Assembly: GCF_014203015.1 (NCBI RefSeq) | Contig: NZ_JACHIB010000009.1 | Span: 62,001-126,000, forward strand | Direction: 5' to 3' | DNA: 64,000 nucleotides | Source of the DNA: Castellaniella defragrans | GTDB taxonomy: Bacteria; Pseudomonadota; Gammaproteobacteria; Burkholderiales; Burkholderiaceae_B | Part shown: piece by piece, positions 5,603-61,320 of the stretch | How the letters are laid out: the number at the start of each line of letters is the position of its first letter | Numbering within the stretch: the stretch's first letter is position 1 | The notes under the pieces: model-generated | Seen by the model: the letters and a program-made list of their open reading frames with translations, nothing else | What the model was told of the DNA's origin: nothing | Database searches by the model: none | Position numbers and translations under genes: made by a program

Positions 5603-7276
5603 GTGGATACCGTCACCGTTTTACTCCTGACCTTCATATTATCCGTCACCGGCCTGGGTGTCTTCATCTGGTCCCTCAGGCGGAACATGTTCGACAACAA
5701 TCCCGAGGCCGCCGGGGTGATCTTTTCCACCGGCGAGATCGGCCACGTCGAGGATCCCTCCGCCACGCCGGAGCAGCGGGCCGGCCTGCAGAAGGTCGTC
5801 ACCGACGGCGGCAAGGCCGTCGTCGATCCGTCCCTGGCCGACAAGCTGAAGAAAGAACTCGTCGACCGCCTGGAGGCCGACCAGTCGACCGCCTACGTCA
5901 CCTTCACCTTCCTGTGCTGTGCCATCGTCTGGCTGGTGCTGGCCTCGACCTTCGGCCTGATCAGCTCGATCAAGCTGCACAATCCCGAATTCCTGACGCA
6001 ATACGCCTGGCTCACCTTCGGCCGCACGCGCACGCTGCACCTGAACATGGTGGCCTACGGCTGGTGTCCGATGGCGGCCTTCGGCGTGGCGATCTGGATG
6101 CTGCCGCGCCTGCTGAAGACGCGCCTGTACGGCGGACGCTTCGCGCTGCTGGGCTGCATGCTCTGGAACGCCGGCCTGATCGCCGGCCTGGGCAGCATCG
6201 CCGTGGGCATCAACGACGGCCTGGAGTGGCTGGAAATCCCCTGGCAGATCAGCATCCTGCTGGTGCTGGGCGGCGCCCTGATCGCGCTGCCGCTGGTGTT
6301 CACCCTGCGCAACCGCAAGGTCGAGCACCTGTACGTGTCGATCTGGTACATGGGCGCGGCGCTGTTCTGGTTCCCGGTGCTGTACCTGGTGGGCAAGGTG
6401 CCCGGCGTGCACTTCGGCGTGGAGCAGGCCACCATGAACTGGTGGTTCGGCCACAACGTGCTGGGCCTGTACTACACGCCGATCGCCCTGGCCTCGGTGT
6501 ACTACTTCCTGCCGAAGATCATCGGCCGTCCGATCCAGTCCTACAACCTGTCGCTGATCGGCTTCTGGGCGCTGGCCTTCTTCTACGGCCAGGTCGGCGG
6601 CCACCACCTGGTCGGCGGCCCGGTGCCGCACTGGCTGATCACGCTGTCGATCGTGCAGTCCATGATGATGATCATCCCGGTTCTGGCCTTCTCGGTGAAC
6701 CAGCACCTGACGATGCGCGGCCACTTCAAGACCATGTACTACTCGCCCACGCTGCGCTTCATCGTGCTGGGCGCCATGATGTACACCCTCAGCTCCTTCG
6801 AGGGCTCCTTCGAGGCGCTGCGCAGCGTCAGCACGGTGGCGCACTTCACCCACTTCACCGTGGCGCACGCGCACCTGGGCCTGTACGCCTTCTTCTCCAT
6901 CGTGATGTTCGGCGCCATCTACTTCGTGATGCCGCGCGTCATGTCCTGGGAATGGCCGCATCCCAAGCTCATCATCGTGCACTTCTGGCTGGTGGCCCTG
7001 GGCATCGGCATCTATTTCGTCAGCCTGTCCATCGGCGGCTGGCTGCAGGGCCTGGCGATGCTGGACGCGACCAAGCCATTCATGGACTCCGTGCGGGTCA
7101 CGATGCCCTACCTCGAAGGCCGCACGGTGGGCGGCGCCATGATGACCCTGGGCCATCTGGTGTTCGCCGTCCACTTCGTGCAGATGGCCCTGCGCTACGG
7201 CACGCGCCGCGTGGGTCCCGCCCTGTTGCACAACCGCAAATCCTCGCCTGAGCCTCAGGCATTCGCAGGTGCCTGA
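5603..7276 (+). CDS. ccoN: cbb3-type cytochrome c oxidase subunit I with CcoS-like N-terminus
   Basis: This is the membrane haem-copper catalytic subunit, reducing O2 at a high-spin haem/CuB centre. Low-spin haem ligand region RTLHLNMVAYG, CuB His in WWFGHNVLG and GGHHLVGG, and the haem ligands in TVAHAHLG are all present; the tyrosine of the FFYGQVGGHH segment aligns with the cross-linked Tyr of cbb3 oxidases. The first ~35 residues (one helix, then FIWSLRRNMFDNNPEAAG) resemble the assembly factor CcoS, and about 60 polar residues separate them from the core. The GTG at 5603 has GGAAG four bases upstream; a TTG at 5570 is an alternative start. The sequence is divergent from classical CcoN. 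ccoO follows three bases later. Confidence 0.88.
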   Translation: MDTVTVLLLTFILSVTGLGVFIWSLRRNMFDNNPEAAGVIFSTGEIGHVEDPSATPEQRAGLQKVVTDGGKAVVDPSLADKLKKELVDRLEADQSTAYVTFTFLCCAIVWLVLASTFGLISSIKLHNPEFLTQYAWLTFGRTRTLHLNMVAYGWCPMAAFGVAIWMLPRLLKTRLYGGRFALLGCMLWNAGLIAGLGSIAVGINDGLEWLEIPWQISILLVLGGALIALPLVFTLRNRKVEHLYVSIWYMGAALFWFPVLYLVGKVPGVHFGVEQATMNWWFGHNVLGLYYTPIALASVYYFLPKIIGRPIQSYNLSLIGFWALAFFYGQVGGHHLVGGPVPHWLITLSIVQSMMMIIPVLAFSVNQHLTMRGHFKTMYYSPTLRFIVLGAMMYTLSSFEGSFEALRSVSTVAHFTHFTVAHAHLGLYAFFSIVMFGAIYFVMPRVMSWEWPHPKLIIVHFWLVALGIGIYFVSLSIGGWLQGLAMLDATKPFMDSVRVTMPYLEGRTVGGAMMTLGHLVFAVHFVQMALRYGTRRVGPALLHNRKSSPEPQAFAGA

Positions 7277-7278
7277 TC

Positions 7279-7908
7279 ATGGAAAGCGAATACAAACTCC
7301 TCAGCGGCGCGATGGTGACCCTCGCGCTGGCCACCGCCACCCTGGTCGTGCTGCCCTACATGCAGCTGTCCGACGTGCCGCCCTCCGAAGGCCTGAAGCC
7401 CTATACGGAGCAGCAGCTGCGCGGGCGCCAGGTCTACATCGAGATGGGCTGCGTCTATTGCCACTCGCAGCAGCCGCGCAGCCAGTCCCAGGCGCCGGAC
7501 TTCCAGCGCGGCTGGGGCCGCGCGCCGGTCGCGGGCGATTACTACTACGACCGTCCGCACCTGCTGGGCACCATGCGCACCGGGCCGGACCTGTTCAACA
7601 TCGGCGCGCGCCAGCCCAGCGTGGACTGGAACCTGGGCCACCTGTACGAGCCGCGCGCCTACACGCCGGGCAGCAACATGCCGTCCTTCCCCTTCCTGTT
7701 CAAGCTCAAGGACAAGGCCGAGCCGGGCGACAAGGTCGTCAACCTGCCGCCCAGCTTCGCGCCGGTCGGCAAGGTCGTGGTGGCCACGCCCGAGGCCCTG
7801 GATCTGGTGGATTACCTGATCGGCCTGGATCACACCTATCCGGTCAACCCCGGCTCGCAGTTGCCGGAACTGCCCAAGCAGGCCGGCGGTGAAGGAGCGA
7901 AGCAATGA
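7279..7908 (+). CDS. ccoO: cbb3-type oxidase monohaem subunit II
   Basis: A 209-residue membrane-anchored c-type cytochrome that passes electrons to CcoN. One N-terminal helix (about residues 10-28) is followed by a single haem-binding CVYCH at residues 58-62; GTMRTGPDLFNIGARQPS and the methionine in PGSNMPSFPF (axial ligand) are typical CcoO features. The start follows the ccoN stop by two bases and its stop overlaps ccoP by four bases (ATGA), so the three subunits are made from one transcript. Confidence 0.92.
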   Translation: MESEYKLLSGAMVTLALATATLVVLPYMQLSDVPPSEGLKPYTEQQLRGRQVYIEMGCVYCHSQQPRSQSQAPDFQRGWGRAPVAGDYYYDRPHLLGTMRTGPDLFNIGARQPSVDWNLGHLYEPRAYTPGSNMPSFPFLFKLKDKAEPGDKVVNLPPSFAPVGKVVVATPEALDLVDYLIGLDHTYPVNPGSQLPELPKQAGGEGAKQ

Positions 7909-8486
7909 GCGAGTCCCGATTCAACCAGCAGCGCCGCGAGCAGCCCGAGCCGCACGAGGGCAGCCGCCCGGTTCCCAAGATCGTCCTGACGGTCATCGGC
8001 CTGCTGCTGCTGTGGGCGGTGGTTCACCTGTATACCAGCTTCAATCCGATGCCCGCGTCCGTGGGCGACGATCGCGTCGCGGCCGACTTCGCCGTGCCGG
8101 CGACGGCCGACGGCGGCCAGCTCTACACGGCCAACTGCGTGGCCTGTCACCAGGCCAGCGGCGCCGGCGTGCCGGGCGTGTTCCCGCCGCTGTCCAAGTC
8201 CGAATGGGTGGACGCGGGCGATCCGGGCATCATGATCCGCATCCTGCTGCACGGCATCCACGGCCCGCTGACGGTCGAGGGCGCCCAGTACAACGGGGAA
8301 ATGCCGAACTTCGCCAAGTTCTCCGACGAGGAGATCGCCGCCCTCGTGACCCACGTGCGCTCCAGCTTCGGCAACGCCGCCTCGGCCGCCGACGCCAAGA
8401 CGGTCGCCCAGGTGCGCGAGGAAACCAAGGGTCAGCAAGGCCCCTGGAAGGGCGACGAGGACCTGCGGCCCCTGCTGGGCAAGTAG
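7905..8486 (+). CDS. ccoP: Short monohaem CcoP-like cytochrome c
   Basis: This gene takes the place of CcoP, the electron-entry subunit of cbb3 oxidases, but is only 193 residues and has one haem motif, CVACH at residues 78-82, with a likely Met ligand in GEMPNF near residue 133. Classical CcoP is about 300 residues with two CxxCH motifs. One membrane helix (about 25-43) is followed by a single cytochrome c domain and a polar tail. It could equally be called a membrane-anchored cytochrome c of a CcoN-CcoO complex. It overlaps ccoO by four bases. Confidence 0.8.
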   Translation: MSESRFNQQRREQPEPHEGSRPVPKIVLTVIGLLLLWAVVHLYTSFNPMPASVGDDRVAADFAVPATADGGQLYTANCVACHQASGAGVPGVFPPLSKSEWVDAGDPGIMIRILLHGIHGPLTVEGAQYNGEMPNFAKFSDEEIAALVTHVRSSFGNAASAADAKTVAQVREETKGQQGPWKGDEDLRPLLGK

Positions 8487-8504
8487 CCCGGGCGGAGAGC
8501 CGGT

Positions 8505-9191
8505 GTGCGCTGGATCCTCGCGCTGGCGCTGGCCCTGGCGGCCGGCCTGGGGGCGCTGTACGGCCTGACCGGCGGCTTCACCGTCCTGACGGCCGAGGCC
8601 GCGCGCCGCCAGGACGTGGCCCGGCATCCCCGGGCGATTCCGGCCGCCGAGGTGCTGACCGGGGACGGCCGGGTCCTGGACCTGGACCGGGAGCTGCGCC
8701 GCGACGGGCGCGTCGCCCTCGTCAATTTCTTCTACACCCGCTGCCTGGCCCTGTGCCTGGCGCAGGGTTCCCTGACCGAGCGCCTGCAGCAGGCCATCGA
8801 GGCGCGCGGACTGCAGGACCGCATCCGGCTGATCAGCATCAGCTTCGATCCGCGCGACCGGGCGCCGGACCTGGCGCGCTACGCGGCGCGCATGGGCGCC
8901 GATCCGGCCGTCTGGCAATTCCTGTCCTTCGCCCGCCCCGCGCAGCGCGATGCCGTGCTGGCGCTGTTCGGCATCACGGTCGTGCCGGCGCCCCTGGGCG
9001 AGTTCGAGCACAATGCCGCCTTCCACGTCGTGACGCCCGACGGCCGCCTGGCGCGCATCCTGGACCTGGACGATCCCGGCCTGGCCCTGCGCGCGGCAGA
9101 GGATGAGGCCGGACGCAGGCCGGCCCCCGCGGACCGGCCTGCGCCCGGCGAACCGGGGCGGCCCGCGGGCCGCGACGCGGGCGGCGTGTAG
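8505..9191 (+). CDS. SCO1/SenC family copper chaperone
   Basis: SCO proteins deliver copper to, or reduce thiols of, haem-copper oxidases on the outer face of the membrane. This 228-residue protein has an N-terminal helix that should anchor it, then a thioredoxin-like fold. The copper-binding pair is CLALC (Cys80 and Cys84), and the third ligand is His169 in GEFEHNAAFHVV. The GTG start is supported by GGAGAG six bases upstream. The last ~35 residues are Pro/Gly/Arg-rich and probably disordered. Its place directly after ccoNOP indicates a role in CuB insertion. Confidence 0.88.
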   Translation: MRWILALALALAAGLGALYGLTGGFTVLTAEAARRQDVARHPRAIPAAEVLTGDGRVLDLDRELRRDGRVALVNFFYTRCLALCLAQGSLTERLQQAIEARGLQDRIRLISISFDPRDRAPDLARYAARMGADPAVWQFLSFARPAQRDAVLALFGITVVPAPLGEFEHNAAFHVVTPDGRLARILDLDDPGLALRAAEDEAGRRPAPADRPAPGEPGRPAGRDAGGV

Positions 9192-47878: not shown

Positions 47879-48922
47879 ATGCACTCGCTTACCGTCGAGC
47901 ATCTTGCTGCGCCTCGCTTTGACAGCACTCAGGTAGCCACATTGCGCTCACTGGGTGAGTGCCGGGGTAAGCAGTTGCTCTATGCCGCGCAGTCTCCTGA
48001 AGTCCTCAAAGGTTTGCGCCAGGCTGCTGCGGTCGAATCCACCGAGTCATCCAACCGGCTGGAAGGCGTTGTGGTTGCGCCTTCGCGGTTGAAGTCTCTG
48101 GTCATCCGCAACGCAACGCCAAAGGGCCGTTCCGAACAAGAGATCGCCGGCTACCGTGATGCCCTGGCGCTGATCCAGGAGTCCGCCACACACATGCCCT
48201 TCAACGAAGGCGTGGTGCTGCAACTGCACACCCTGCTGTACCGCTACATGCCGCAGACGGGCGGGCGCTGGAAGGCGACCAACAACGACATCATCGAACG
48301 CCATTCCGACGGCACGTCGCGGTTGCGCTTCCGGCTGGTCGCTGCGCACCTCACGTCCATGGCCATGACCGATCTGGCCGGGCGCTACGCCACCGCATTG
48401 GACCAGCACCTGGCTGACCCGTTGGTGCTGGTGCCACTGGCGATGCTCGACTTCCTGTGCATCCATCCGTTCCCCGACGGTAACGGTCGCATGTCTCGCC
48501 TGTTGACCTTGCTGCTCTACCAGTTCGACTATGCCGTGGGCCGCTACATCAGCTTGGAACGCATCTTCGAGGATACCAAGGAAGGCTACTACGAGACGCT
48601 GGAAGCCAGTTCGCAGGGAGGGCACCAGAGGCAGCACGACGTCAAACCCTGTCTCGACTACTTCTGGGGTGCCTTGCTACGGGCGTACCGCGAGTTCGAG
48701 GGGCGTGTCGGCACCATCGAGCGGAGACGCGGCAGCAAAGGCGACCGGGTGCGCGCGGAAGTCCTGGGACGCACTCTGCCGTTTTCGATTTCGGAAATTG
48801 AACAGGCCTACCCAGGCGTGAGCCGGGATATGGTGCGACTAGTGTTGCGGACGATGAAATCAGAGGGGTTGATCGAGTCGACAGGCAAAGGACGGGGAGC
48901 GAAATGGATCAAGCAGGCGTAA
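47879..48922 (+). CDS. Fic family protein with C-terminal winged helix
   Basis: A 347-residue Fic enzyme, which transfers AMP (or related groups) onto target proteins. The core motif is complete: HPFPDGNGRMSRLL (near residues 197-210), with the catalytic His and phosphate-binding GNGR. An N-terminal inhibitory helix of class II type is present: ESTESSNRLEGV (S-x3-E-G form) around residues 53-64, so activity should be self-restrained. The C-terminal ~70 residues (FSISEIEQAYPGVSRDMVRL) look like a winged helix. It is the first gene of the island. A toxin, regulator or defence role is possible. Confidence 0.85.
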   Translation: MHSLTVEHLAAPRFDSTQVATLRSLGECRGKQLLYAAQSPEVLKGLRQAAAVESTESSNRLEGVVVAPSRLKSLVIRNATPKGRSEQEIAGYRDALALIQESATHMPFNEGVVLQLHTLLYRYMPQTGGRWKATNNDIIERHSDGTSRLRFRLVAAHLTSMAMTDLAGRYATALDQHLADPLVLVPLAMLDFLCIHPFPDGNGRMSRLLTLLLYQFDYAVGRYISLERIFEDTKEGYYETLEASSQGGHQRQHDVKPCLDYFWGALLRAYREFEGRVGTIERRRGSKGDRVRAEVLGRTLPFSISEIEQAYPGVSRDMVRLVLRTMKSEGLIESTGKGRGAKWIKQA

Positions 48923-48929
48923 GGGGATC

Positions 48930-49076
48930 ATGATGAAATTGGTCGGCAACATCAGTCGCTTGCCGGGGGCCAACCTCCAACAAGCCATCTGCCTAGGAGT
49001 GCGGCCAGAGGTCGGAGTCTTGTGCTTTGAATCGCCCCGAAACAGCAGCCCAAAAAATCAGGGGGCAAAGAAGTGA
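48930..49076 (+). CDS. Small ORF of 48 codons, coupled to the restriction gene
   Basis: From the ATG at 48930 an uninterrupted frame of 48 residues begins MMKLVGNISRLPGANLQQAI and ends in PKNQGAKK. AAGGGG lies three to four bases before the start. The stop TGA overlaps the GTG start of the restriction gene (GTGA), the same four-base junction used elsewhere in the window. No family is recognised; it has no clear signal peptide or membrane segment. It may be a leader or accessory peptide, or only a coupling device. Confidence 0.45.
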   Translation: MMKLVGNISRLPGANLQQAICLGVRPEVGVLCFESPRNSSPKNQGAKK

Positions 49077-52000
49077 GTGACCAGTTTTTCAACCAGCCAA
49101 TCCTCAATTCGCCATACGACTACCCGTCTCGGCACTGGGAGCTGGACGACAGTGGACAACCTACGCAGCAAATCGTCGAGTCACGTCGAGCTTCCAGTTT
49201 CATCAGTCCGATTCCAAAGCCCCGCCGGCATCGCGGCGAGCAGGCTACTCTGGCGTTGGATGAAGTTGAGAACCTGGCTGATGACGGGCAGCGTTACCGC
49301 CACTCTGAACTGATCAATTCGGTGCGGCGCGAGGTCGATGCCTGGCGACGCTTGCCGCCGTCGCAATGGCGTGTCACCCCCGAAACGGCCCGTCTGCTGG
49401 AGCACTGGCGCAACCACAAGTTCGCTGGGGTGCGCCCGTTCTTCTGCCAGGTCGAAGCGGCCGAAACCGCGATCTGGTTGACCGAGGTCGTCCCGCAGCT
49501 CGGCAAAAGTGGGGAACGCTTCCTCGATCACCTGAAGAAGGTCAGCAACGACGCCAACCCCGGCCTGATGCGCCTGGCGCTGAAGCTGGCCACCGGTGCT
49601 GGCAAGACCACGGTCATGGCCATGCTCATCGCTTGGCAGACGGTCAATGCCGTGCGCCATCCGCAGAGCAAGAAATTCACTCGTGGTTTCCTGCTGGTCG
49701 CCCCTGGCCTGACCATCAAGGATCGTTTGCGCGTGCTGCTGCCCAATGACGCCGACAGCTACTACGCCAGCCGCGAGATCGTGCCACGCGACATGCTGGC
49801 GGATCTGGACAAGGCCAAGATCGTCATCACCAACTACCACGCTTTCAAGCTGCGCGAGCGCCTGGAGTTGTCCAAGGGCGGCCGTCGCTTGCTGCAAGGC
49901 CGCACCGGCAGTGAGCCGGACACGCTCGAAACCGAGGGTCAGATGCTCCAGCGGGTCATGCCGGAATTGATGGGGCTGAAGAACATCCTTGCCATCAACG
50001 ACGAGGCTCACCATTGCTATCGCGAAAAACCCGCTTCCGACGACGACTTCGTTGACGGCAAGGGCAATCCGCTGACCGGCGATGAACTCAAGGCTGCCAA
50101 GGAACACGTCAAGGACGAGAACGAAGCCGCACGGCTGTGGATTTCCGGCCTGGAAGCAGTCAACCGCAAGCTGGGCCTGCAGCAGGTGATCGATCTGTCG
50201 GCCACGCCATTCTTCCTGGCCGGCTCCGGCTACGTGGAAGGCACGCTTTTTCCCTGGACGATGAGCGACTTCTCGCTGATGGACGCCATCGAATGCGGCA
50301 TCGTCAAATTGCCGCGCGTGCCGGTGGCCGACAACATCCCCGGCGCGGAAATGCCCATCTACCGCGAGCTATGGAAGCACATCGGCAAGAAGATGCCGAA
50401 GAAGGGGCGTGGCAAGAACGCCCAACTTGATCCGTTGGCCATTCCGGTGGAGTTGCAGACCGCGCTGGAAGCCCTGTACGGCCACTACCTCAAAACCTAC
50501 GAAGCCTGGAAGCAGGCAGGCATCAATGTGCCACCGTGCTTCATCGTGGTATGCAACAACACCGCCACTTCCAAACTGGTGTTCGATTACATCTCCGGTT
50601 TCGAGCGCACGAATGAAGATGGCTCTGTTACGCCCGTGGAGGGGCGTCTGCAACTGTTCCGCAACTTCGACGAGCACGGCAACCCGTTGGCGCGCCCGAA
50701 AACCTTGCTGATCGACAGCGAGCAGCTCGAATCCGGCGAGGCGCTGGACGATAACTTCCGGGGCATGGCCGCCGACGAGATCGAACGCTTCAAGCGCGAA
50801 ATCATCGAGCGCACCGGCGACCGCCGCCAGGCTGAAAACCTGAGTGACAGCGAACTGCTGCGCGAGGTGATGAACACCGTTGGCAAGCAGGGCCGCCTGG
50901 GTGAGCAAATCCGCTGCGTGGTGTCGGTGTCCATGCTCACAGAAGGCTGGGATGCCAACACCGTGACCCACATCCTCGGTGTGCGTGCGTTCGGCACCCA
51001 ATTGCTGTGCGAACAGGTGATTGGCCGAGCCCTGCGCCGCCAATCCTATGAGTTGAACGAGCAAGGCCTGTTCGACGTGGAGTACGCCGACGTATTCGGC
51101 ATTCCTTTCGACTTCACAGCCAAGCCGGTCGTTGTCACGCCGCCCAAGCCCCGCGAAACCATTACGGTCAAGGCATTGCGCCCGGAGCGCGACCCTCTGG
51201 AAATCCGGTTCCCTCGCGTGCAGGGCTATCGCGTCGAACTGCCAGAAGAACAACTCGAAGCCGAATTCAACGGTGACCACCACCTCACCCTGACGCCAGA
51301 CATGGTTGGCGCAACCCAGACCCACAACGCCGGCATCATCGGCGAGGCGGTAGTGCTGGACATCAAGCATCTGCAAGATGTGCGGCAGTCCACTCTGTTG
51401 ATGGAGTTGACCAAGCACCTGCTGTTCCAGCATTGGCGCGACCAAGGTCAGGACGCGCCGATTGCATTGTTTGGGCAGCTCAAGCGCATCGTGCGCCAGT
51501 GGCTGGACGAGTGCCTGGAATGCAAGGGAGGCACCTGCCCGGCGCAATTGATGTACCGCGAACTGGCGGACATGGCCTGCCAGCGCATCACCAAGGGCAT
51601 TACCGCGAAGGAGCTGCAGAAAGGCCGGCAGGTCAAGGCCATCCTCGACCCGTTCAACCCCACCGGCAGCACCGCGCATGTGCGCTTCAACACCTCTCGC
51701 CCGGGCAGCGAACGCTGGGAAACCCTCGGCGTGGAGAACCAGCCGAAGAACCAGGTCAACTGGGTCATCCTGGACAGTGGCTGGGAAGGCGAATTCTGCC
51801 GCGTCGCCGAGTCCCACCCCAAGGTGCTGGCCTACACCAAGAACCACAACCTCGGCCTGGAAGTGCCCTACCGCTTCGGCTCGGCCAACCGTATTTACAT
51901 CCCGGACTTCATCGTGCAAGTGGATGACGGTCATGGCAAGAACGACCCGCTGAACCTGATCGTTGAAATCAAGGGCTACCGGCGCGAGGATGCGAAGGAA

Positions 52001-52186
52001 AAGAAGTCCACCATGGACACCTACTGGATTCCCGGCGTGAATCACCTCGGCACGCACGGCCGCTGGGCCTTTGCCGAGTTCGGCGATGTGTACGAAATGC
52101 AGGAAGACTTTGCCAAAGAGGTCGAGGCGAAGTTCAACCAAATGATTGAAACGGCTGCACCTGCACCGGGCAACAAGGGACACTGA
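49073..52186 (+). CDS. res: Type III-like restriction enzyme subunit (superfamily 2 helicase with PD-ExK nuclease)
   Basis: A 1037-residue protein. Residues ~165-660 form a superfamily 2 helicase: ATGAGKTTVMAML (~173), INDEAHH (~310), DLSATPFFLAG (~375), and QVIGRALRRQ (~648). The C-terminus has a nuclease core, IYIPDFIVQVDDG (~943) and LIVEIKGYR (~965), i.e. P-D...E-x-K. It resembles the family that NCBI names BPTD_3080 restriction endonuclease (from memory). It would cut DNA lacking the partner modification after ATP-driven translocation or switching. The GTG start overlaps the small ORF; the methyltransferase ATG follows immediately. Confidence 0.88.
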   Translation: MSDQFFNQPILNSPYDYPSRHWELDDSGQPTQQIVESRRASSFISPIPKPRRHRGEQATLALDEVENLADDGQRYRHSELINSVRREVDAWRRLPPSQWRVTPETARLLEHWRNHKFAGVRPFFCQVEAAETAIWLTEVVPQLGKSGERFLDHLKKVSNDANPGLMRLALKLATGAGKTTVMAMLIAWQTVNAVRHPQSKKFTRGFLLVAPGLTIKDRLRVLLPNDADSYYASREIVPRDMLADLDKAKIVITNYHAFKLRERLELSKGGRRLLQGRTGSEPDTLETEGQMLQRVMPELMGLKNILAINDEAHHCYREKPASDDDFVDGKGNPLTGDELKAAKEHVKDENEAARLWISGLEAVNRKLGLQQVIDLSATPFFLAGSGYVEGTLFPWTMSDFSLMDAIECGIVKLPRVPVADNIPGAEMPIYRELWKHIGKKMPKKGRGKNAQLDPLAIPVELQTALEALYGHYLKTYEAWKQAGINVPPCFIVVCNNTATSKLVFDYISGFERTNEDGSVTPVEGRLQLFRNFDEHGNPLARPKTLLIDSEQLESGEALDDNFRGMAADEIERFKREIIERTGDRRQAENLSDSELLREVMNTVGKQGRLGEQIRCVVSVSMLTEGWDANTVTHILGVRAFGTQLLCEQVIGRALRRQSYELNEQGLFDVEYADVFGIPFDFTAKPVVVTPPKPRETITVKALRPERDPLEIRFPRVQGYRVELPEEQLEAEFNGDHHLTLTPDMVGATQTHNAGIIGEAVVLDIKHLQDVRQSTLLMELTKHLLFQHWRDQGQDAPIALFGQLKRIVRQWLDECLECKGGTCPAQLMYRELADMACQRITKGITAKELQKGRQVKAILDPFNPTGSTAHVRFNTSRPGSERWETLGVENQPKNQVNWVILDSGWEGEFCRVAESHPKVLAYTKNHNLGLEVPYRFGSANRIYIPDFIVQVDDGHGKNDPLNLIVEIKGYRREDAKEKKSTMDTYWIPGVNHLGTHGRWAFAEFGDVYEMQEDFAKEVEAKFNQMIETAAPAPGNKGH

Positions 52187-52187
52187 G

Positions 52188-55055
52188 ATGGCAACCAAGA
52201 AAACACAGAAGCCCGGCAAGAGCATCGAGCAGATCACGCATACCGAGGCCAAACGCAAGAACATCCCGACGGTGGAGCATCAGTCGGTGATGCAACACCA
52301 CGAGCAAGCGCCGGTGCAGGTGGCGTACCCGCGCGCCAATCGGCAATGGCTGGAGGAGCTGTGCGCCCTGCATGATGCAGGCAAGGTATCCCCGGAATTC
52401 CAGCAGCGGCTGAACCGTGACCTCGACCCGCAGCTCATCTGGCGTGGCAAGGACCAGCAGGACTGGTCAGACCTGGTCGTCAATGCGCCGCCGCTCTACA
52501 TCCAGGAGAAGGTCAAGCCCAAGGCGCTGATCGACAACCTGCGGCGCCAGACCGAGGAACGACGCGGAGCTGCCACGCCGCAGCAGGACATACCGGATCT
52601 GTTCGGCGACTTCAATGGTTTGCCCACAGGTGCGGATCGGACTGAGTTCTACCAGCACGAAGGCCATTGGCAGAACCGGATGATCCTGGGCGACAGCTTG
52701 CAGGTGATGGCGAGCCTGGCCGAACGCGAGGGGTTGCGAGGCAAAGTGCAGTGCATTTATTTCGATCCGCCCTATGGGATCAAGTTCAACAGCAATTTCC
52801 AGTGGTCAACCACCAGCCGCGACGTAAAAGATGGCAATGCCGACCACATCACCCGCGAGCCGGAGCAGGTGAAGGCATTTCGGGATACCTGGCGTGATGG
52901 CATTCATTCGTATCTGACGTATTTGCGCGACCGGTTGATGGTGGCGCGGGATTTGTTGACCGAATCCGGGTCTATTTTTGTGCAGATTGGCGATGAGAAT
53001 GTGCATCGTGTGCGTACTCTAATGGATGAAATTTTTGGTGACGAAAATTTCGTTAGTCAGATCGCAGTAAGAAAAACAGGAGCGGTCAGTAGCCCCGATG
53101 CAAAATTGAACTCCCTCGGAACTATATCAGATCATGTTGTCTGGTATGCGAGACGAAAGGATTTTCTCAAGTATCGCCAACTCTACACAAGAAAGGCAGA
53201 CACAAACACTGCAGAGCAGTATCGGCTTACCGACGAGGGCGGTCAATATCAGTCCGTAACGATTGAGTCGAACGGCTATGCAGAGAATTTTCACTTTCCG
53301 ATTCGGATCAGGGGCAAGGATTTTTATCCCGCAAGGACTCGGCATTGGAGTACCACGGAAAAGGGCATCTATCGTGTGGCAAACGCCGGCCGAGTAATCG
53401 CTACCGAAAAAAAACTTCGTTTCAAGAAATATATGGAAGATTTTCCGGTAAGTCCAATTGCAAATATCTGGGCGGACGTTATGGGGTCGTCGGGGCTGAT
53501 CTATGTTGTGCAAACTAATGAGCGTATTGTCGAACGGTGCTTGTTGATGGCAACCGATCCTGGCGACTTAGTGCTTGACCCCACCTGCGGTTCCGGTACG
53601 ACGGCCTATGTCGCCGAACAATGGGGACGTCGCTGGATAACGATTGATACTTCGCGCGTTGCACTTGCACTAGCACGCGCCCGTATCATGGGCGCACGTT
53701 ATCCTTTTTACCTACTCGCCGATTCCCGCGAAGGCCAACAGAAAGAAGCCGAGATCACCCGTGGCGCACTTTCTAGCCATGTCACCTACGGCAACATCAC
53801 CCAGGGTTTCGTGTATGAGCGCGTGCCGCATATTACCCTAAAATCCATCGCCAACAATGTCGAGATTGATGTCATCTGGGACGCCTTCCAGTCTAAGCTA
53901 GAGCTACTGCTCGAACAACTTAATGCGGCGCTGAAAAAGAACTGGCAGGAATGGGAAGTTCCGCGTGAAGCCGATGCAAAGTGGAGCGACAAAGCCAAGA
54001 AGCTGCACGCCGACTGGTGGCAGCAGCGCATCGCCCGACAAAAGGAAGTCGACGCATCGATCTCCGCCAAGGCCGAGTTCGAGTACCTCTACGACAAACC
54101 CTACGAGGACAAGAAGAAGGTGCGCGTGGCCGGCCCCTTCACCGTTGAATCGTTGTCGCCGCATCGCGTGCTGGGCGTGGACGAGGAAGACAACCTGATC
54201 GACCACGTGGCCGAGGCTCAAGCGGAGTACGGCCAGGACTTCGCCAGCCTGATCCTGGCCAATTTGCGCACCGCAGGCGTGCAGCAGGCACACAAGGCCG
54301 ACAAGATCGAGTTCACCTCACTGGAAGCGTGGCCGGGCGACTTGATTTGTGCCGAAGGCCGCTATCTGGAGAACGGGCAGGTGAAGCGTGCCGGCATCCT
54401 GGTCGGTCCCGAATTCGGTACCGTCACTCGCGCTGACCTGGTCGATGCTGCCCGCGAGGCGGGTGATGCCAATTTCGACGTACTCATCGCCTGCGCCTTC
54501 AACTACGACGCACCGGCCAGCGAATTCAGCAAGCTGGGCCGCATCAACGTGCTCAAGGCACGCATGAACGCCGACCTGCACATGGCCGAAGATCTGAAGA
54601 ACACCGGCAAGGGCAACCTGTTCGTGATCTTCGGCGAACCGGATGTAGATGTGCTGGACACCCAGGGCCGCAGCATCCGCCGCTACGACGGCAAGCGCGA
54701 CGTCATCGAGGTGCCCGCGGACGGACAACTGGTGGTCAAGATCAACGGCGTGGACGTGTTTCACCCCAGCACCGGCGAAGTGCGCAGCGACGGCGCAGAC
54801 GGCATCGCCTGCTGGTTCCTGGACACCGACTACAACGAGGAATCCTTCTTCGTCCGCCATGCCTACTTCCTTGGTGCGAGCGATCCGTACAAGGCGCTGA
54901 AGATCACCCTCAAGGCCGAAATTGACCCCGACGCCTGGGCAACACTCAACAGCGATACCTCACGCCCATTCCCGAAACCCAGCACCGGGCGGTTCGCTGT
55001 GAAGGTCATCAATCATCTCGGGGATGAAGTGATGAAGGTTTTCAGGGTAAGCTAG
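52188..55055 (+). CDS. mod: Type III-like DNA methyltransferase
   Basis: A 955-residue beta-class amino methyltransferase (N6-adenine or N4-cytosine) that should protect host DNA. The catalytic DPPYGIKF is at ~193 and the AdoMet motif LDPTCGSGTTAYVAEQWG at ~463, the order expected for the beta class. The segment between them (about bases 53000-53560) is markedly AT-richer than both sides and should contain the target-recognition domain. The ~400 residues after the motifs are unusual for length and may bind the restriction subunit. The ATG at 52188 follows the res stop by one base. Confidence 0.9.
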   Translation: MATKKTQKPGKSIEQITHTEAKRKNIPTVEHQSVMQHHEQAPVQVAYPRANRQWLEELCALHDAGKVSPEFQQRLNRDLDPQLIWRGKDQQDWSDLVVNAPPLYIQEKVKPKALIDNLRRQTEERRGAATPQQDIPDLFGDFNGLPTGADRTEFYQHEGHWQNRMILGDSLQVMASLAEREGLRGKVQCIYFDPPYGIKFNSNFQWSTTSRDVKDGNADHITREPEQVKAFRDTWRDGIHSYLTYLRDRLMVARDLLTESGSIFVQIGDENVHRVRTLMDEIFGDENFVSQIAVRKTGAVSSPDAKLNSLGTISDHVVWYARRKDFLKYRQLYTRKADTNTAEQYRLTDEGGQYQSVTIESNGYAENFHFPIRIRGKDFYPARTRHWSTTEKGIYRVANAGRVIATEKKLRFKKYMEDFPVSPIANIWADVMGSSGLIYVVQTNERIVERCLLMATDPGDLVLDPTCGSGTTAYVAEQWGRRWITIDTSRVALALARARIMGARYPFYLLADSREGQQKEAEITRGALSSHVTYGNITQGFVYERVPHITLKSIANNVEIDVIWDAFQSKLELLLEQLNAALKKNWQEWEVPREADAKWSDKAKKLHADWWQQRIARQKEVDASISAKAEFEYLYDKPYEDKKKVRVAGPFTVESLSPHRVLGVDEEDNLIDHVAEAQAEYGQDFASLILANLRTAGVQQAHKADKIEFTSLEAWPGDLICAEGRYLENGQVKRAGILVGPEFGTVTRADLVDAAREAGDANFDVLIACAFNYDAPASEFSKLGRINVLKARMNADLHMAEDLKNTGKGNLFVIFGEPDVDVLDTQGRSIRRYDGKRDVIEVPADGQLVVKINGVDVFHPSTGEVRSDGADGIACWFLDTDYNEESFFVRHAYFLGASDPYKALKITLKAEIDPDAWATLNSDTSRPFPKPSTGRFAVKVINHLGDEVMKVFRVS

Positions 55056-55069
55056 GAGAACGAGGGCAT

Positions 55070-56170
55070 ATGAAAATCGACTTCTCCCAACCCAAGTTCA
55101 CTGGCGCACGCTTTGACGAGCATACGTTACCCGTCGACGTGGCTCGTGACCTTGCTGCTTATGAACGCCTGATTGTCGAGCTGGCCAAGCATCTGTATTT
55201 GCAGGAGCACCCAGGGAGGCAGCGCGTGCCCAAGGGGTTTGAAGCCGGTTTCCGCCTGGACATTGAGCGCATCGATGAAGGTAGTACCAAGCCCATGCTG
55301 GCGCTGGTCATGGCTGGCGCGCTTGCTCTGCAAGGCGGCGAGAGAGATTATTTCGAGCGTGCCCGCGACTTGGTGGCCGAATGCATCGCAGCGCCGATTA
55401 CTGCATTGCCAGAAGCATTTCCGAAAGAGCTGTTGGGATACTTCAATCAGTTCGGCCGTTCTTTGCGTGCCGATGAGGCTTTGGAGTTGCCGCTTCAAAG
55501 CGGCAATCCGGCCCGTTTGACACAGGACAAACGCAAGCAACTGGTATTGGCCGCTGATCAGGTCTATGAACGAGAAATTTCGCTCAATGGTTACATTGAA
55601 GAAGTAGATTTCGCCAAATCTTCGTTTCGCCTGAAGCCGGCAGACAACAGCCCGGCCGTTGTTATTCCTATGTCGGATTCGTTTCATAACACGGCTCGCA
55701 CCTATGGGGGGCGTGAGCGTCATCAGATTAGCGTAGCGGGTGTAGGTGCCTATGACTCTTACGAACGCCTTCAAAAAGTAATATCCATCGAGTCGCTGGA
55801 AGTCACCAAAAACTACGCCATCTCGGCGCGGTTCGACGAAATCTCCCAGCTCGAAAATGGCTGGTTCGAGGGTGGTGGGCTGGCGCCCAATGCCGACAGG
55901 CTGTCTCGTGTTTCTGAGAAACTGATCGCTGATTACCCGGATAAATTACCCATACCCCTGATTGTTTCAAAGCAAGATGGCAATCTTTTGCTCGAATGGA
56001 AAGTCGAAGGCGACCCATCGCTGGACATCGATTTGACCAATTTGCAAGCCAGTTACCATGCGTTCGGAGCCAATGATGAGGACGTGGAGAGAGACTTCAA
56101 TCTCGATGCTGCTGGCTGGCAGTCCCTGTTCGCGTTCTTGAATGAAAATATCAAGGTGCAACAGGCATGA
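55070..56170 (+). CDS. Unknown island protein, 366 residues
   Basis: I do not recognise this protein. It has no signal peptide, membrane helix or nucleotide-binding motif. The N-terminal half is rich in helix-forming stretches (RDLAAYERLIVELAKHLYLQ, ALALQGGERDYFERARDLVA); the middle shows beta-type alternation (EISLNGYIEEVDFAKSSFRL, AVVIPMSDSF), and the C-terminal part (LPIPLIVSKQDGNLLLEWKV) is reminiscent of small all-beta modules. A CGAGGG site precedes the ATG. It overlaps the next gene by four bases, and both lie between the methyltransferase and the helicase fusion, implying a joint role in the same system. Confidence 0.75.
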   Translation: MKIDFSQPKFTGARFDEHTLPVDVARDLAAYERLIVELAKHLYLQEHPGRQRVPKGFEAGFRLDIERIDEGSTKPMLALVMAGALALQGGERDYFERARDLVAECIAAPITALPEAFPKELLGYFNQFGRSLRADEALELPLQSGNPARLTQDKRKQLVLAADQVYEREISLNGYIEEVDFAKSSFRLKPADNSPAVVIPMSDSFHNTARTYGGRERHQISVAGVGAYDSYERLQKVISIESLEVTKNYAISARFDEISQLENGWFEGGGLAPNADRLSRVSEKLIADYPDKLPIPLIVSKQDGNLLLEWKVEGDPSLDIDLTNLQASYHAFGANDEDVERDFNLDAAGWQSLFAFLNENIKVQQA

Positions 56171-56541
56171 ACGAACAGATTTTGCTGCTGCGCCAGGTGC
56201 ATCCGAATTTCTTTCCCGATGGCGAGGTTTCCAGCCAAGCTTTCTTTCCTTTCCCGAAGGATGACGGAAAACTGTCCGTTTACGATGGCAATCAGACTAC
56301 TGCGGAGGCATCGCATCAGCACTACACCGTGGAGCTCGGTCTGGAATCCGTTGGCGTGTGGGCTGTCAGTGGCGCGGAGACCGTATCGATTGGTTTGACC
56401 CACCAGCCGGATCCTGTCGCCGGGAACCCAGCGCACGCGATCATTAATTTCGGCGCGTTCACCGAAAAGGAATGCCGGAAGTTGGCGAAGAAGCTGAAGA
56501 AGTTCGCGGTGGATCGCGGTAGTCAGTATCGCGTAGCGTAA
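56167..56541 (+). CDS. Unknown island protein, 124 residues
   Basis: This small soluble protein is not recognised. It starts MNEQILLLRQVHPNFFPDGE and contains FFPFPKDDGKLSVYDGNQTT and a basic C-terminus (ECRKLAKKLKKFAVDRGS). Its ATGA overlaps the stop of the 366-residue gene, so the two are probably made in equal amounts and may bind each other. No catalytic motif is evident. The basic tail could contact nucleic acid, which is a guess. Confidence 0.72.
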   Translation: MNEQILLLRQVHPNFFPDGEVSSQAFFPFPKDDGKLSVYDGNQTTAEASHQHYTVELGLESVGVWAVSGAETVSIGLTHQPDPVAGNPAHAIINFGAFTEKECRKLAKKLKKFAVDRGSQYRVA

Positions 56542-56563
56542 TTGCCATCGTTGAGAGGAACTG

Positions 56564-58648
56564 ATGGAATTCCGCATTGCAGACACCTTTACCACCAGCC
56601 TGGCCCGCCTGACCGGCGATGAACAAAAGTCCGCGAAGACCACTGCCTTCGATTTGCAGATGGATCCTGCCGGCAACGGCATGAGCTTTCACAAGCTCGA
56701 CAGAGCCAAAGACCCGAACTTTTGGTCGGTGCGTGTCAGCCGCGACATTCGCCTGATCGTCCACAAGACCGCTGGCAGTCTGCTGCTCTGCTACGTCGAT
56801 CACCACGACAAGGCCTATCAATGGGCCGAGCGGCGCAAGCTGGAAGTGCACCCGACCACCGGCGCGGCTCAGCTTGTCGAGGTCCGCGAGCGTGTCGAGG
56901 AGATCCTCGTTCCGAAGTATGTCGAGGACAGCAGGCCGGCCACGCAGCAGAAGCCGAAACCGTTCGCAAAATATGGCGACGCCCAACTGCTGGCCTATGG
57001 TGTGCCGCAGGAGTGGCTGGCCGACGTGAAGGCTGCCGACGAGGATTCGCTGCTGGAACTGGCCGACCACCTGCCCGGTGAGGCGGCCGAAGCCCTGCTT
57101 GAACTGGCGACCGGCGGTACGCCGGCGTTGCCGGAAGTGGCAACCAAGGGGGCGGACCCATTCCAGCACCCGGACGCGCAACGCCGTTTCCGCATCATGT
57201 CCGATATGGACGAGTTGGCCCGCGCCCTGGAATACCCGTGGGACAAGTGGACGGTGTTCCTCCATCCGGCGCAGCGTCAGCTGGTCGAACGTCATTACAA
57301 CGGAGCGGCGCGTGTGTCTGGCTCGGCGGGCACGGGCAAGACCGTGGTTGCCTTGCACCGGGCTGTACATCTGGCGCACCAGGACGAAGATGCGCGCGTT
57401 CTGCTTTCCACGTTTTCGGACACATTGGCCAATGCCTTGTGCGGCAATTTGTATCGGCTGATCTGGAACACTCCCAAGCTCGGTGAACGTATCGACGTGG
57501 CCGCCATGGATGCTCTCGGCATCCGCTTGTATGCGGCGGAATTCGGTAAACCGGTATTTGCCAGCCGTGATGAAATTTCCACGCTGCTGAAGGCGACTGC
57601 CACGCAGGTGGATGGCCTGAAAGCCAACGTCGCGTTTTTGCTGTCCGAATGGGAAGGCGTGGTGGACACCTGGCAAGTGGAAAGCTGGGAGGCTTACCGC
57701 GATGCCAAGCGTCTGGGGCGCAAGACGCGCCTGCCGGAGGCGCAGCGCGCTTTGTATTGGCAGGTATTCGCCGAGGTGAAGAAGCAATTGAAGCAGGCCG
57801 GCAAGATCACTGCGTCCGAGATGTTTGCCAAGCTGGCTGAGGCGATGTCCAAGCGCAAGCATCCGGTATTCGATTACATCGTGGTGGACGAGGCACAGGA
57901 CATCGGTGTGCAGCAATTGCGCTTCCTTGCGGCGATCGCTGGCGACCGCGCCAATGCCCTGTTCTTTGCCGGCGATCTTGGCCAGCGCATTTTCCAGTCT
58001 CCGTTCTCGTGGAAAGCTCTGGGGGTAGATGTGCGTGGCCGCTCGCGCACGCTCAATATCAATTACCGCACCTCGCATCAGATTCGCTCGCAGGCCGACC
58101 GGCTTCTCGGCCCCGAGGTATCCGATATGGACGGTAATGTCGAAAGCCGCAAGGGCACGATTTCCGTATTCAATGGGCCAGAGCCGACCATCCGTAGCTA
58201 CGCCGATGCCGAGGCGGAGTGCCAAGCAGTCGGCGTGTGGCTGCAGCAATGCAGTACCAGCGGTGTACTGCCGCAGGAAATTGGAGTCTTCGTTCGATCA
58301 GAAAGCGAGCTATCACGCGCACAGGCGGCAGTCAAGGCCGCAGGCTTGCAGGGGCGCGTACTCGGCAGGGACATGGCAACGGAAGAGGGCTTCGTCAGTA
58401 TCATCACCATGCATCTGGCCAAGGGGATGGAATTCCGCGTGGTTGCAGTGATGGCCTGCGATGACGAAATCATTCCTTCTCAGGTACGCATTGACACTGC
58501 TGCTGACGAGGCCGAGTTGACCGAAATCTACAACACCGAGCGCCAGTTACTGTATGTGGCTTGCACCCGTGCCCGCGACCAATTACATGTCTCAGCAGCG
58601 AAACCGGCGTCGGAATTTTTGGGGGACATAGACTTACTGCAGAAGTAG
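56564..58648 (+). CDS. RelE/ParE-like domain fused to UvrD/Rep-type helicase
   Basis: A 694-residue fusion. Residues 1-92 look like a RelE/ParE toxin fold: FHKLDRAKDPNFWSVRVSRD, IRLIVHKTAGSLLLCYVDHH and AYQWAERRKL follow the strand pattern and basic positions of that family. After a linker (~93-230) comes a superfamily 1 helicase: SGSAGTGKTVVAL (~253), YIVVDEAQDIG (~442), LNINYRTSHQIRS, TMHLAKGMEFRVV and LLYVACTRARDQL. No antitoxin gene of the usual small type precedes it. GAGAGGA is the ribosome site. It may remodel DNA or RNA as part of the defence module. Confidence 0.85.
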   Translation: MEFRIADTFTTSLARLTGDEQKSAKTTAFDLQMDPAGNGMSFHKLDRAKDPNFWSVRVSRDIRLIVHKTAGSLLLCYVDHHDKAYQWAERRKLEVHPTTGAAQLVEVRERVEEILVPKYVEDSRPATQQKPKPFAKYGDAQLLAYGVPQEWLADVKAADEDSLLELADHLPGEAAEALLELATGGTPALPEVATKGADPFQHPDAQRRFRIMSDMDELARALEYPWDKWTVFLHPAQRQLVERHYNGAARVSGSAGTGKTVVALHRAVHLAHQDEDARVLLSTFSDTLANALCGNLYRLIWNTPKLGERIDVAAMDALGIRLYAAEFGKPVFASRDEISTLLKATATQVDGLKANVAFLLSEWEGVVDTWQVESWEAYRDAKRLGRKTRLPEAQRALYWQVFAEVKKQLKQAGKITASEMFAKLAEAMSKRKHPVFDYIVVDEAQDIGVQQLRFLAAIAGDRANALFFAGDLGQRIFQSPFSWKALGVDVRGRSRTLNINYRTSHQIRSQADRLLGPEVSDMDGNVESRKGTISVFNGPEPTIRSYADAEAECQAVGVWLQQCSTSGVLPQEIGVFVRSESELSRAQAAVKAAGLQGRVLGRDMATEEGFVSIITMHLAKGMEFRVVAVMACDDEIIPSQVRIDTAADEAELTEIYNTERQLLYVACTRARDQLHVSAAKPASEFLGDIDLLQK

Positions 58649-58816
58649 TTATGCGCGCCTCGGATGCTTCGGGTGGTTACCGAATGCACAGGCTTTGTCA
58701 CCCCAGCTGCTTGCTCGACGTCCGGCTTTCTCTTCCCGGATAGGCCGCTGTCTGGGCACGTCTTGTATCACGCTATCGTTCTTTAGAATACGTTGTTCCG
58801 GCAGAAGGCTAAGGAA

Positions 58817-59137
58817 ATGGACCAGATATTAAAAAGGTTGCGCCAGTTTCGCGATGATCGCGACTGGAAGCAGTTTCATAACCCCAAGGACCTGGCAGTG
58901 GCCCTGAGCATTGAAGCCAGCGAGCTGCTGGAGGCCTTTCTCTGGAAGGCACCCGAAGATGCCGATCCCGAGAAGGTCAGGGAGGAACTGGCGGACGTGC
59001 TGGCCTACGCGCTGCTTCTGTCGGATGCCTACGGCTTTGACATCCAGCAAATCGTCCTGGATAAAATCGAACGAAACGAGGAAAAATACCCGGTCGACAA
59101 AGCCCGGGGCAGCGCAAAGAAATACAACGAACTATGA
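58817..59137 (+). CDS. MazG-like nucleotide pyrophosphohydrolase
   Basis: A 106-residue all-alpha NTP pyrophosphatase of the MazG/dCTPase type, converting NTPs or dNTPs to monophosphates. The Mg2+-binding pattern is clear: ALSIEASELLEAFLW (Glu33, Glu36) and REELADVLAYALLLSD (Glu56/57, Asp60). The ATG has AAGGA directly upstream. Its last four bases overlap the start of the 728-residue fusion gene (ATGA). A weak promoter-like pair, TTGTAT (58763) and TAGAAT (58784), lies before it in the 168-base gap, which holds no other feature. Confidence 0.85.
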   Translation: MDQILKRLRQFRDDRDWKQFHNPKDLAVALSIEASELLEAFLWKAPEDADPEKVREELADVLAYALLLSDAYGFDIQQIVLDKIERNEEKYPVDKARGSAKKYNEL

Positions 59138-61320
59138 GTCAGCCGGACCTTGTTGAAGTCAACCGATACGGGTTTTCAACAGAAGCCCTGGCAGGCATAC
59201 AGGCCAATGCTTACGCCGCCGGTCATTGGCCGCTGGTCTACATCCTCAGCGACGGTGCCACGAGCAATGCCTATGTCGGTGAAACCACCGACACGCTCAC
59301 CCGGCTGAATACCCACCTCAAGCACCCGTGCAAGAAACAGCTGACCACGGTGCACCTCATCAGCAGCGAGCGCTTCAATAAATCCGCAACGCTTGACATC
59401 GAATCCTCGTTGATCAAATATATGGCGGCCGACGGCTGCTTCAGGCTGCTGAACGGCAACCTGGGTCTGGTCGATCATAACTACTTCCAGAAGGATGAAC
59501 TTTATTCGGCGATCTTTCGGGAGACCTGGGACAAGCTGCGGACACAAGGCGTTGCCTCGCGTTCTTTGGAGGCCATCGACAACTCCGATGTCTTCAAGTA
59601 TTCGCCCTACAAATCCCTGTCATCCGACCAGCGCCAGAGCTTGATTGAAATCATGCGGGCGCTGCTGGATCCGGGACTGAAGAACCTGGTGGTGGAAGGC
59701 GGCGCAGGCACCGGAAAGTCCGTTCTGGCCATATTTCTGTTCAAGCTGATCCACACCGACGATACCGGACTGGATCTGCGTGAGTTTTCCGAAGAGGAAA
59801 CCGAGCTGCGGGAACTGCTGGCGCAGTTCAAGACTCTTTGCTCCCAGCCGCGCATGGCCCTGGTCGTGCCGATGGCATCCTTCCGGGAGACCCTGAAAAA
59901 GGCATTCGGACACATCGTCGGCCTGCACCCGGACATGGTCATCAGCCCTTCAGAACTGGCACGGCAGCCCTACGATGTCGTGCTGGTCGATGAATCGCAC
60001 CGGCTGCGCAAACGGGTCAATCTGGGGTCTTACTACGGCGCCTTCGACAGGGTCTGCGCAACCTTGGGACTGGACAAGCACACGTGCAGCGAGGTCGACT
60101 GGGTCACCCGACAGTCGAAAAAGGCTGTCTTTTTCTACGACGCGGACCAGACCATCAAGCCGTCCGATGCCAACGCCAGCGATTTCCAGGCCATCAAATC
60201 GTCGCCCGGCTCGAGGGTCATGATGCTGGTTTCCCAGTTCCGGGTCCAGGGGGGACGGCACTATGTGAAATTCCTCGACGACCTTCTGAACCTGCGCCTG
60301 ACCGGTACCGGGAAATTCCATTCAAAGAAATATGAGTTCCTGGCGTTCGATGGCATATCGGACATGGTGCGGGAGATCGACCGGCGGAATCAAACCCACG
60401 GCCTTGCACGCCTCATTGCCGGCTATGCCTGGCCGTGGGTGTCGAGAAAAAATCCGAGCGCATACGATATCGAGATCGCGGATGTCCGACTGCGCTGGAA
60501 CCGCACCAACATCGACTGGATCAACACCCCAGGAGCCGAGCACGAGGTTGGCTGCATCCATACCACCCAAGGCTATGACCTGAACTATGCGGGCGTCATC
60601 TTCGGCCACGAAATCCGCTATGACGCGCAGCGGAACCAGATCGTCATCGACAAAGGCAACTACCATGACCGCACCGGCAAGCAAACCATACATGACCCGG
60701 ATGAGCTGAAGCGGTACATCCTCAATATCTATAAAACCATCATGCTGCGGGGCATCAAGGGAACCTTCGTCTACGCTTGCGATGAAGGCCTGCGCAACTA
60801 CCTGAAGCGGTACATAGCCACCTACGAGACCAACGTCATCCCGCTGGCCAGGCCGGCAGAAAAGCTGGAACCTTACGTCAATGCGGTTCCTCTCTACGAC
60901 TTGCAGGCCGCCGCAGGCGGTTTCAGCGGGCTTCAGCATGTCGAGCATGAAAACTGGGTCGCCGTGCCGCAGGGCTTGCCGGTGGGAAGAGATATTTTCG
61001 CCTGTCGGGTGGTCGGAGAGTCGATGAACAAGATCATTCCGAACGGTGCCATCTGCCTTTTCCGTCTGAACCCTGGCGGCAGCCGGAACGGAAAGATCGT
61101 GCTGGTCGAGTGCGCCGAGGTCCAGGATGATGATTCAGGTTCACGATATACCGTCAAGGAATATCAGAGCCTCAAGATTGACACCGAAGATGGATGGCAG
61201 CACCAGAGAATTCTCTTGAAACCCCGCTCATACAATCCCAACATGGCGACGCTCGAGATCAGCAGCGACGACGAACATCGTTATCGTGTGGTCGGAGAGT
61301 TCTTGGGCGTGATCGATTGA
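59134..61320 (+). CDS. GIY-YIG nuclease, DUF2075 P-loop ATPase and LexA/S24-type peptidase in one chain
   Basis: A 728-residue, three-part protein. Residues ~34-116: GIY-YIG nuclease, with LVYILSDG, AYVGETTDTLTRLNTHL (Tyr36, Tyr47, Arg57) and Glu90 in LDIESSLIKY. Residues ~155-560: DUF2075 helicase-like ATPase with VEGGAGTGKSVLAI (189-196) and DVVLVDESHR (281-290). Residues ~582-728: S24/LexA-type peptidase, with VVGESMNKIIPNG (Ser630), RYTVKEYQSL (Lys675) and a likely Ala594-Gly595 cleavage point, 36 residues before the Ser as in LexA/UmuD. No DNA-binding repressor domain is attached. Translation is coupled to the MazG-like gene. Functions of the parts are established; their combined role is unknown. 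Confidence 0.85.
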   Translation: MSQPDLVEVNRYGFSTEALAGIQANAYAAGHWPLVYILSDGATSNAYVGETTDTLTRLNTHLKHPCKKQLTTVHLISSERFNKSATLDIESSLIKYMAADGCFRLLNGNLGLVDHNYFQKDELYSAIFRETWDKLRTQGVASRSLEAIDNSDVFKYSPYKSLSSDQRQSLIEIMRALLDPGLKNLVVEGGAGTGKSVLAIFLFKLIHTDDTGLDLREFSEEETELRELLAQFKTLCSQPRMALVVPMASFRETLKKAFGHIVGLHPDMVISPSELARQPYDVVLVDESHRLRKRVNLGSYYGAFDRVCATLGLDKHTCSEVDWVTRQSKKAVFFYDADQTIKPSDANASDFQAIKSSPGSRVMMLVSQFRVQGGRHYVKFLDDLLNLRLTGTGKFHSKKYEFLAFDGISDMVREIDRRNQTHGLARLIAGYAWPWVSRKNPSAYDIEIADVRLRWNRTNIDWINTPGAEHEVGCIHTTQGYDLNYAGVIFGHEIRYDAQRNQIVIDKGNYHDRTGKQTIHDPDELKRYILNIYKTIMLRGIKGTFVYACDEGLRNYLKRYIATYETNVIPLARPAEKLEPYVNAVPLYDLQAAAGGFSGLQHVEHENWVAVPQGLPVGRDIFACRVVGESMNKIIPNGAICLFRLNPGGSRNGKIVLVECAEVQDDDSGSRYTVKEYQSLKIDTEDGWQHQRILLKPRSYNPNMATLEISSDDEHRYRVVGEFLGVID

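Follow-up and report, generated by a model that had tools for sequence, protein, structure and literature searches.

The main new finding of this analysis is that a LexA-type S24 peptidase domain occurs repeatedly on DNA-translocating nucleases. LexA-type self-cleavage is known from repressors and from a polymerase subunit. In the window (the whole 64,000-nucleotide stretch of Castellaniella defragrans DNA that was analysed), the domain ends a 728-residue nuclease-helicase whose gene overlaps that of a MazG-like protein by 4 nt, and the relevant features are as follows.

47879..61320, + strand: low-GC island, 53-61% GC compared with 71% in 1-47 kb
58817..59137, + strand: gene for a MazG-like NTP pyrophosphohydrolase of 106 aa, read from ATG 58817 (PF12643, E 1.2e-20)
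59134..61320, + strand: gene for a GIY-YIG, SLFN-g3 (DUF2075) helicase and S24 peptidase protein, 728 aa
59233..59415, + strand: GIY-YIG nuclease domain, residues 34-94 (PF01541, E 5e-4)
59683..60783, + strand: SLFN-g3 SF1-type helicase/ATPase, residues 184-550 (PF09848, E 7e-57)
60820..60876, + strand: variable linker, residues 563-581 (mean column conservation 0.30)
60880..61317, + strand: LexA-type S24 peptidase domain, residues 583-728 (PF00717)
60913..60918, + strand: predicted self-cleavage site Ala594-Gly595 (AAG invariant, 43/43)
61021..61023, + strand: Ser630, predicted nucleophile, in GESMN (43/43)
61156..61158, + strand: Lys675, predicted general base, in TVK (43/43)

The sequence-only reading had described 59134-61320 as a nuclease, a DUF2075 ATPase and an S24 peptidase joined in one chain, and Pfam matches were found for all three (SLFN-g3_helicase is the present Pfam name of the former DUF2075). 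Its placing of Ala594, Gly595, Ser630 and Lys675 was confirmed codon by codon, and its statement that a repressor domain is missing agrees with a Pfam scan of the 728-aa protein, which shows only GIY-YIG, helicase and S24 and no HTH domain. It omitted the overlapping MazG-like gene, which has an alternative longer start at TTG 58793 and whose product contains an ExxE...ExxD motif (read in the sequence). The GIY-YIG domain of the 728-aa protein scores 20.7 bits, just below the Pfam cut-off of 22.6; the assignment stands because the catalytic residues are invariant (Y36, Y47, R57, E90 and N107 across 7 full-length homologues, with N107 just past the GIY-YIG match) and because a homologue of identical architecture, L070, passes the cut-off with 29.1 bits. 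The helicase part contains a Walker A motif (GGAGTGKS, 189-196) and a DESH motif (286-289) whose residues are invariant, and its fold resembles those of SF1 helicases and of human SLFN11 (7zel), a Schlafen group 3 protein that works in the DNA-damage response. Unlike SLFN11, which has a Schlafen nuclease core, this protein begins with GIY-YIG, and no Pfam match to the Schlafen core nuclease (AlbA/SLFN) domain was found. Peptidase_S24 matches residues 586-721 (E 9.5e-7, 29.0 bits against a cut-off of 23.3), and a comparison of the full 728-aa sequence with solved structures gave no match at E 0.1.

Conservation of the S24 part was analysed in a set of 43 SLFN-helicase homologues with an S24 domain, drawn from Pseudomonadota and Bacteroidota; this set was chosen by a G[ED]SM regular expression and is circular for Ser, and in all 43 proteins A593, A594, G595, F597, S630, M631 and K675 are invariant and the Ser-Lys spacing is 45. 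The retention of Ser630 and Lys675 throughout this set upholds the earlier reading of the peptidase part, which had made their persistence among homologues a point on which its claim turned. The G[ED]SM motif occurs in every homologue longer than 700 aa, and none of the homologues without it exceeds 669 aa; a decayed S24 domain was therefore not seen in any long protein. In addition, mean column conservation is 0.74 in the cleavage segment, as against 0.30 in the linker that precedes it, and dN/dS of the S24 part (0.11-0.18) is similar to that of the helicase part. As these sequence comparisons indicate, the dyad and the cleavage site are under purifying selection.

The model of the S24 domain (pLDDT 78, pTM 0.76) has LexA (3k2z) and lambda CI (2hnf) as its top Foldseek matches, superposes on LexA 3k2z with Z 12.5 and on lambda CI 8gmu with Z 12.2, and gives Z values of 10-12.5 over LexA, a hyper-cleavable lambda CI fragment and UmuD'. 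It also matches the RecA-filament complexes 8gmu and 8trg. The sequence-only reading had proposed a comparison of the predicted structure with LexA and UmuD, and this came out in its favour, as the predicted domain superposes on LexA and lambda CI with the cleavage-site segment included (the alignments to both begin upstream of the site) and UmuD' is matched as well. Its account of the spacing was also right: Ala-Ser and Ser-Lys distances are 36 and 45 residues, compared with 35 and 37 in the host's own LexA, which corresponds to the 8-residue insertion it had described. The domain shares with LexA, UmuD and lambda CI the fold, the Ser-Lys dyad, an upstream Ala-Gly site and a near-identical Ala-Ser spacing, and differs from all three in its Ser-Lys spacing, longer by 8 residues, in an inserted stretch besides, and in being fused to a nuclease-helicase, neither an HTH repressor nor a polymerase subunit. 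On this combination of conserved residues and predicted fold, the S24 domain is very probably a functional LexA-type self-cleaving switch.

The same domain is found on other enzymes. A second type of SLFN-helicase homologue retains the helicase and S24 parts and replaces GIY-YIG with a PD-(D/E)xK-like N-terminus (ELKQW, recognised by eye; no Pfam match). Between the GIY and PD types, identity is higher in S24 (44%) than in the helicase (31%), and within types the order is reversed; the domain has probably been exchanged between enzymes, given that its cross-type identity is the higher of the two despite its lower identity within types. When an S24 profile was applied to 342 genomes of one order, 22 carriers were found, comprising 20 SLFN fusions, one type I HsdR and one DruE-like helicase of 1981 aa with S24 at its C-terminus. 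Among 146 Bacteroidota genomes there were 5 carriers, two of which are PLD-SWI2/SNF2-DUF3427 enzymes, an architecture classed by PADLOC as type IV restriction, and a second viral collection yielded one type III Res fusion in addition to HTH-S24 repressors. The dyad and the Ala-Gly site are retained together in the HsdR (site SA|G), DruE-like and DUF3427 versions; the type III Res keeps Ser and Lys, and its site reads VA|T, with Thr in place of Gly. In the S24 tree, the HsdR, DruE-like and Res versions nest within the PD-SLFN group (98/85), and the defence S24 domains lie far from LexA and the HTH repressors, with long outgroup branches that leave the deepest order unsure. The helicase tree is a quick one with long branches, from which counts of S24 gain or loss are not claimed. 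Together, these occurrences suggest that the S24 subfamily is a portable module that extends beyond GIY-SLFN proteins to at least five other helicase-nuclease architectures.

Several of these loci have features of their own. The S24-bearing HsdR belongs to a complete type I restriction-modification locus (L101), where a gene for a CARF-sigma54 (RtcR-like) activator lies directly upstream of the operon (L101:5868-7379, - strand). The type III Res fusion, on a viral contig (L103:3289-6447, + strand), has its S24 domain at the C-terminus, with Mod upstream and a Fic-like gene (assigned by eye) downstream. The DruE-like protein found here may be compared with Druantia DruE (PMC13192584), and the DruE/YprA and BREX literature examined does not mention S24.

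Homologues of the gene pair indicate which of its neighbours belong with it. The MazG-like gene adjoins every GIY-type homologue examined, mostly with the same 4-nt overlap, and most PD-type homologues, and it is equally common beside S24-bearing and S24-less proteins. At loci with long flanks, other neighbours mostly vary. S24-less prokaryotic SLFN-g3 helicases, with GIY-YIG or PD-(D/E)xK-like N-termini, have the same nuclease-helicase and MazG-like partner; they differ in lacking S24, and the complete ones found here are 563-669 aa long. The S24-less GIY homologues (563-568 aa) stop close to the position matching residue 563, at the start of the S24 part; L038, which ends at its contig edge, was left out of this count. 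A locus in Algoriphagus (L024:7288-11477, + strand) contains one MazG-like gene followed by tandem GIY-SLFN and PD-SLFN helicases, both S24-less. The gut phage MT836409.1 encodes at 7049-8710 a GIY-SLFN helicase relative that apparently has no S24 domain, as it matches query residues 31-574 only. A first viral collection contained only distant relatives that match the helicase part, E. coli genomes gave no DNA-level match, and the sole plasmid match was to Halomonas p_unnamed1, which is unannotated.

In the window, the pair stands at the end of the low-GC island, following genes for Fic, a BPTD_3080-type Res, type III Mod, PDC-M32A/B and a UvrD-type helicase. The last of these (56564-58648) has a first stretch of ~95 residues that by eye resembles a RelE/ParE toxin fold, with no Pfam match there. 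The type III restriction-modification, UvrD and Fic genes were considered as system partners and set aside as local company, since they are mostly missing at homologue loci while MazG stays. The MazG-like protein and the nuclease-helicase are probably a compact, horizontally moving two-gene unit directed against phages or plasmids; the local context and the nature of the fused enzymes make a defence role for the pair likely. A search for the LexA box consensus (CTGT-N8-ACAG) found none above chance in the window or upstream at 20 loci. Transcriptional SOS control is unsupported, at least by this consensus, so control would be post-translational. The host genome encodes RecA, LexA and ClpX.

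The best explanation as a whole, offered tentatively and with a little less than an even chance, is a two-gene defence unit with a damage-triggered OFF switch. In this mechanism, the intact nuclease-helicase would be active or ready. RecA filaments formed on single-stranded DNA, as a result of host damage or collapsed forks, would cause the S24 domain to cut itself between Ala594 and Gly595, yielding fragment 1-594 (the complete nuclease-helicase with a 30-residue tail) and fragment 595-728. The first fragment would end in ...QAAA-COOH, a tail like the one that marks cleaved LexA for ClpXP. It would be destroyed or disarmed, so that the outcome would be a built-in restriction alleviation that spares damaged host DNA. 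That RecA is the trigger is reasonably probable by analogy with LexA, UmuD and CI. The OFF direction, which may be right or wrong with about equal chance, fits slightly better than ON because the fragment ends in Ala-Ala in all 43 homologues, as in LexA, and because type I enzymes are alleviated through ClpXP; it also fits the presence of the same S24 domain on type I, type III and PLD/DUF3427 restriction enzymes. LexA-like proteins expose degrons upon autocleavage (PMC7101444), and two accounts describe type I restriction alleviation as degradation of HsdR by ClpXP (PMC4231737, PMC11109961). Compared with the type I system (PMC4231737), the likeness proposed here is that a DNA-translocating nuclease is disarmed when host DNA is at risk, and the difference is that type I alleviation uses an external protease alone whereas the proposed enzyme carries its own self-cleaving sensor. 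Ala-Ala at P2-P1 is also found in several HTH-S24 repressors, so it may mark ancestry rather than a degron; before the cut, the HsdR and type III versions read SA and VA instead. In addition, residues 1-594 would, by sequence, form a complete enzyme like the natural S24-less homologues, which argues against an OFF switch in that it equally fits activation by release.

Activation by release is what the sequence-only reading favoured. In such a mechanism, the S24 domain would keep the nuclease-helicase inactive, by dimerising or by masking it, until RecA filaments arising from infection or damage led to cleavage, which would free the enzyme to attack phage DNA or kill the cell, much as UmuD is converted to UmuD'. 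The S24-less homologues stop where S24 starts, so the cleaved fragment resembles a stand-alone enzyme, and the matches of the S24 fold to UmuD' and of the helicase fold to human SLFN11 are also consistent with an ON switch. However, the S24-less enzymes must be controlled without S24, which implies that autoinhibition is no general need, and the new ...AAA C-terminus would favour proteolysis. The HsdR protein bears on the same question. Its S24 domain is inserted after the N-terminal helix and ahead of the ADY...EAK nuclease motif, so cleavage would detach an N-terminal segment only; S24 would remain attached to the remaining nuclease-helicase, and release of a free enzyme would not be a common theme. 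On balance, an ON switch is somewhat unlikely.

It is rather unlikely that a cue other than RecA, such as a phage protein, the MazG-like partner or nucleotide state, drives cleavage, an explanation that overlaps with either direction of switching. A precedent exists in IrvR, a LexA-like protein that cleaves without RecA (PMC7101444), and the defence S24 domains form a divergent subfamily, in which the stretch that precedes the catalytic Lys is longer and an extra WxH-bearing stretch, absent from host LexA, is present. However, nothing in these data ties the MazG-like gene to cleavage, as it is equally present beside S24-less homologues. It is more improbable still that the domain serves mainly for docking, as a dimerisation or DNA-damage platform through which the enzyme would reach RecA filaments or replication forks of phages, with self-cleavage incidental or slow. 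Docking alone would not require the dyad and Ala-Gly to be retained jointly, as they are in 43/43 SLFN fusions and in the HsdR, DruE-like and DUF3427 proteins. In favour of docking, LexA and UmuD have S24 domains that form dimers and bind RecA, and the type III Res has kept its dyad with Thr in place of the site Gly.

An S24-nuclease switch is probably new to the literature. No relevant account of DUF2075-S24, MazG-Schlafen or S24-nuclease fusions was found in open-access papers, and the novelty is probable rather than proven as the literature search was confined to these. PADLOC-DB 2.0.0 gave only partial, weak matches to the helicase and nuclease, none to the MazG-like protein and no near full-length system match, and NCBIfam contains no model that covers the full 728-aa protein.

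Returning to the OFF switch and its place in the wider family, the S24 subfamily may be a portable post-translational DNA-damage switch carried by at least six architectures of defence helicase-nucleases (GIY-SLFN, PD-SLFN, type I HsdR, type III Res, PLD/DUF3427 and DruE-like), through which RecA filaments would directly inactivate or activate restriction or abortive enzymes by making them cleave themselves, with no transcriptional step; the chances that this generalisation holds are evenly balanced. If self-cleavage gates these nucleases directly, the SOS signal would be wired straight into bacterial defence enzymes. This would provide a simple answer to how DNA-cutting defences spare damaged host chromosomes, or sense invasion via single-stranded DNA, and one module would link restriction alleviation, the SOS response and phage defence.
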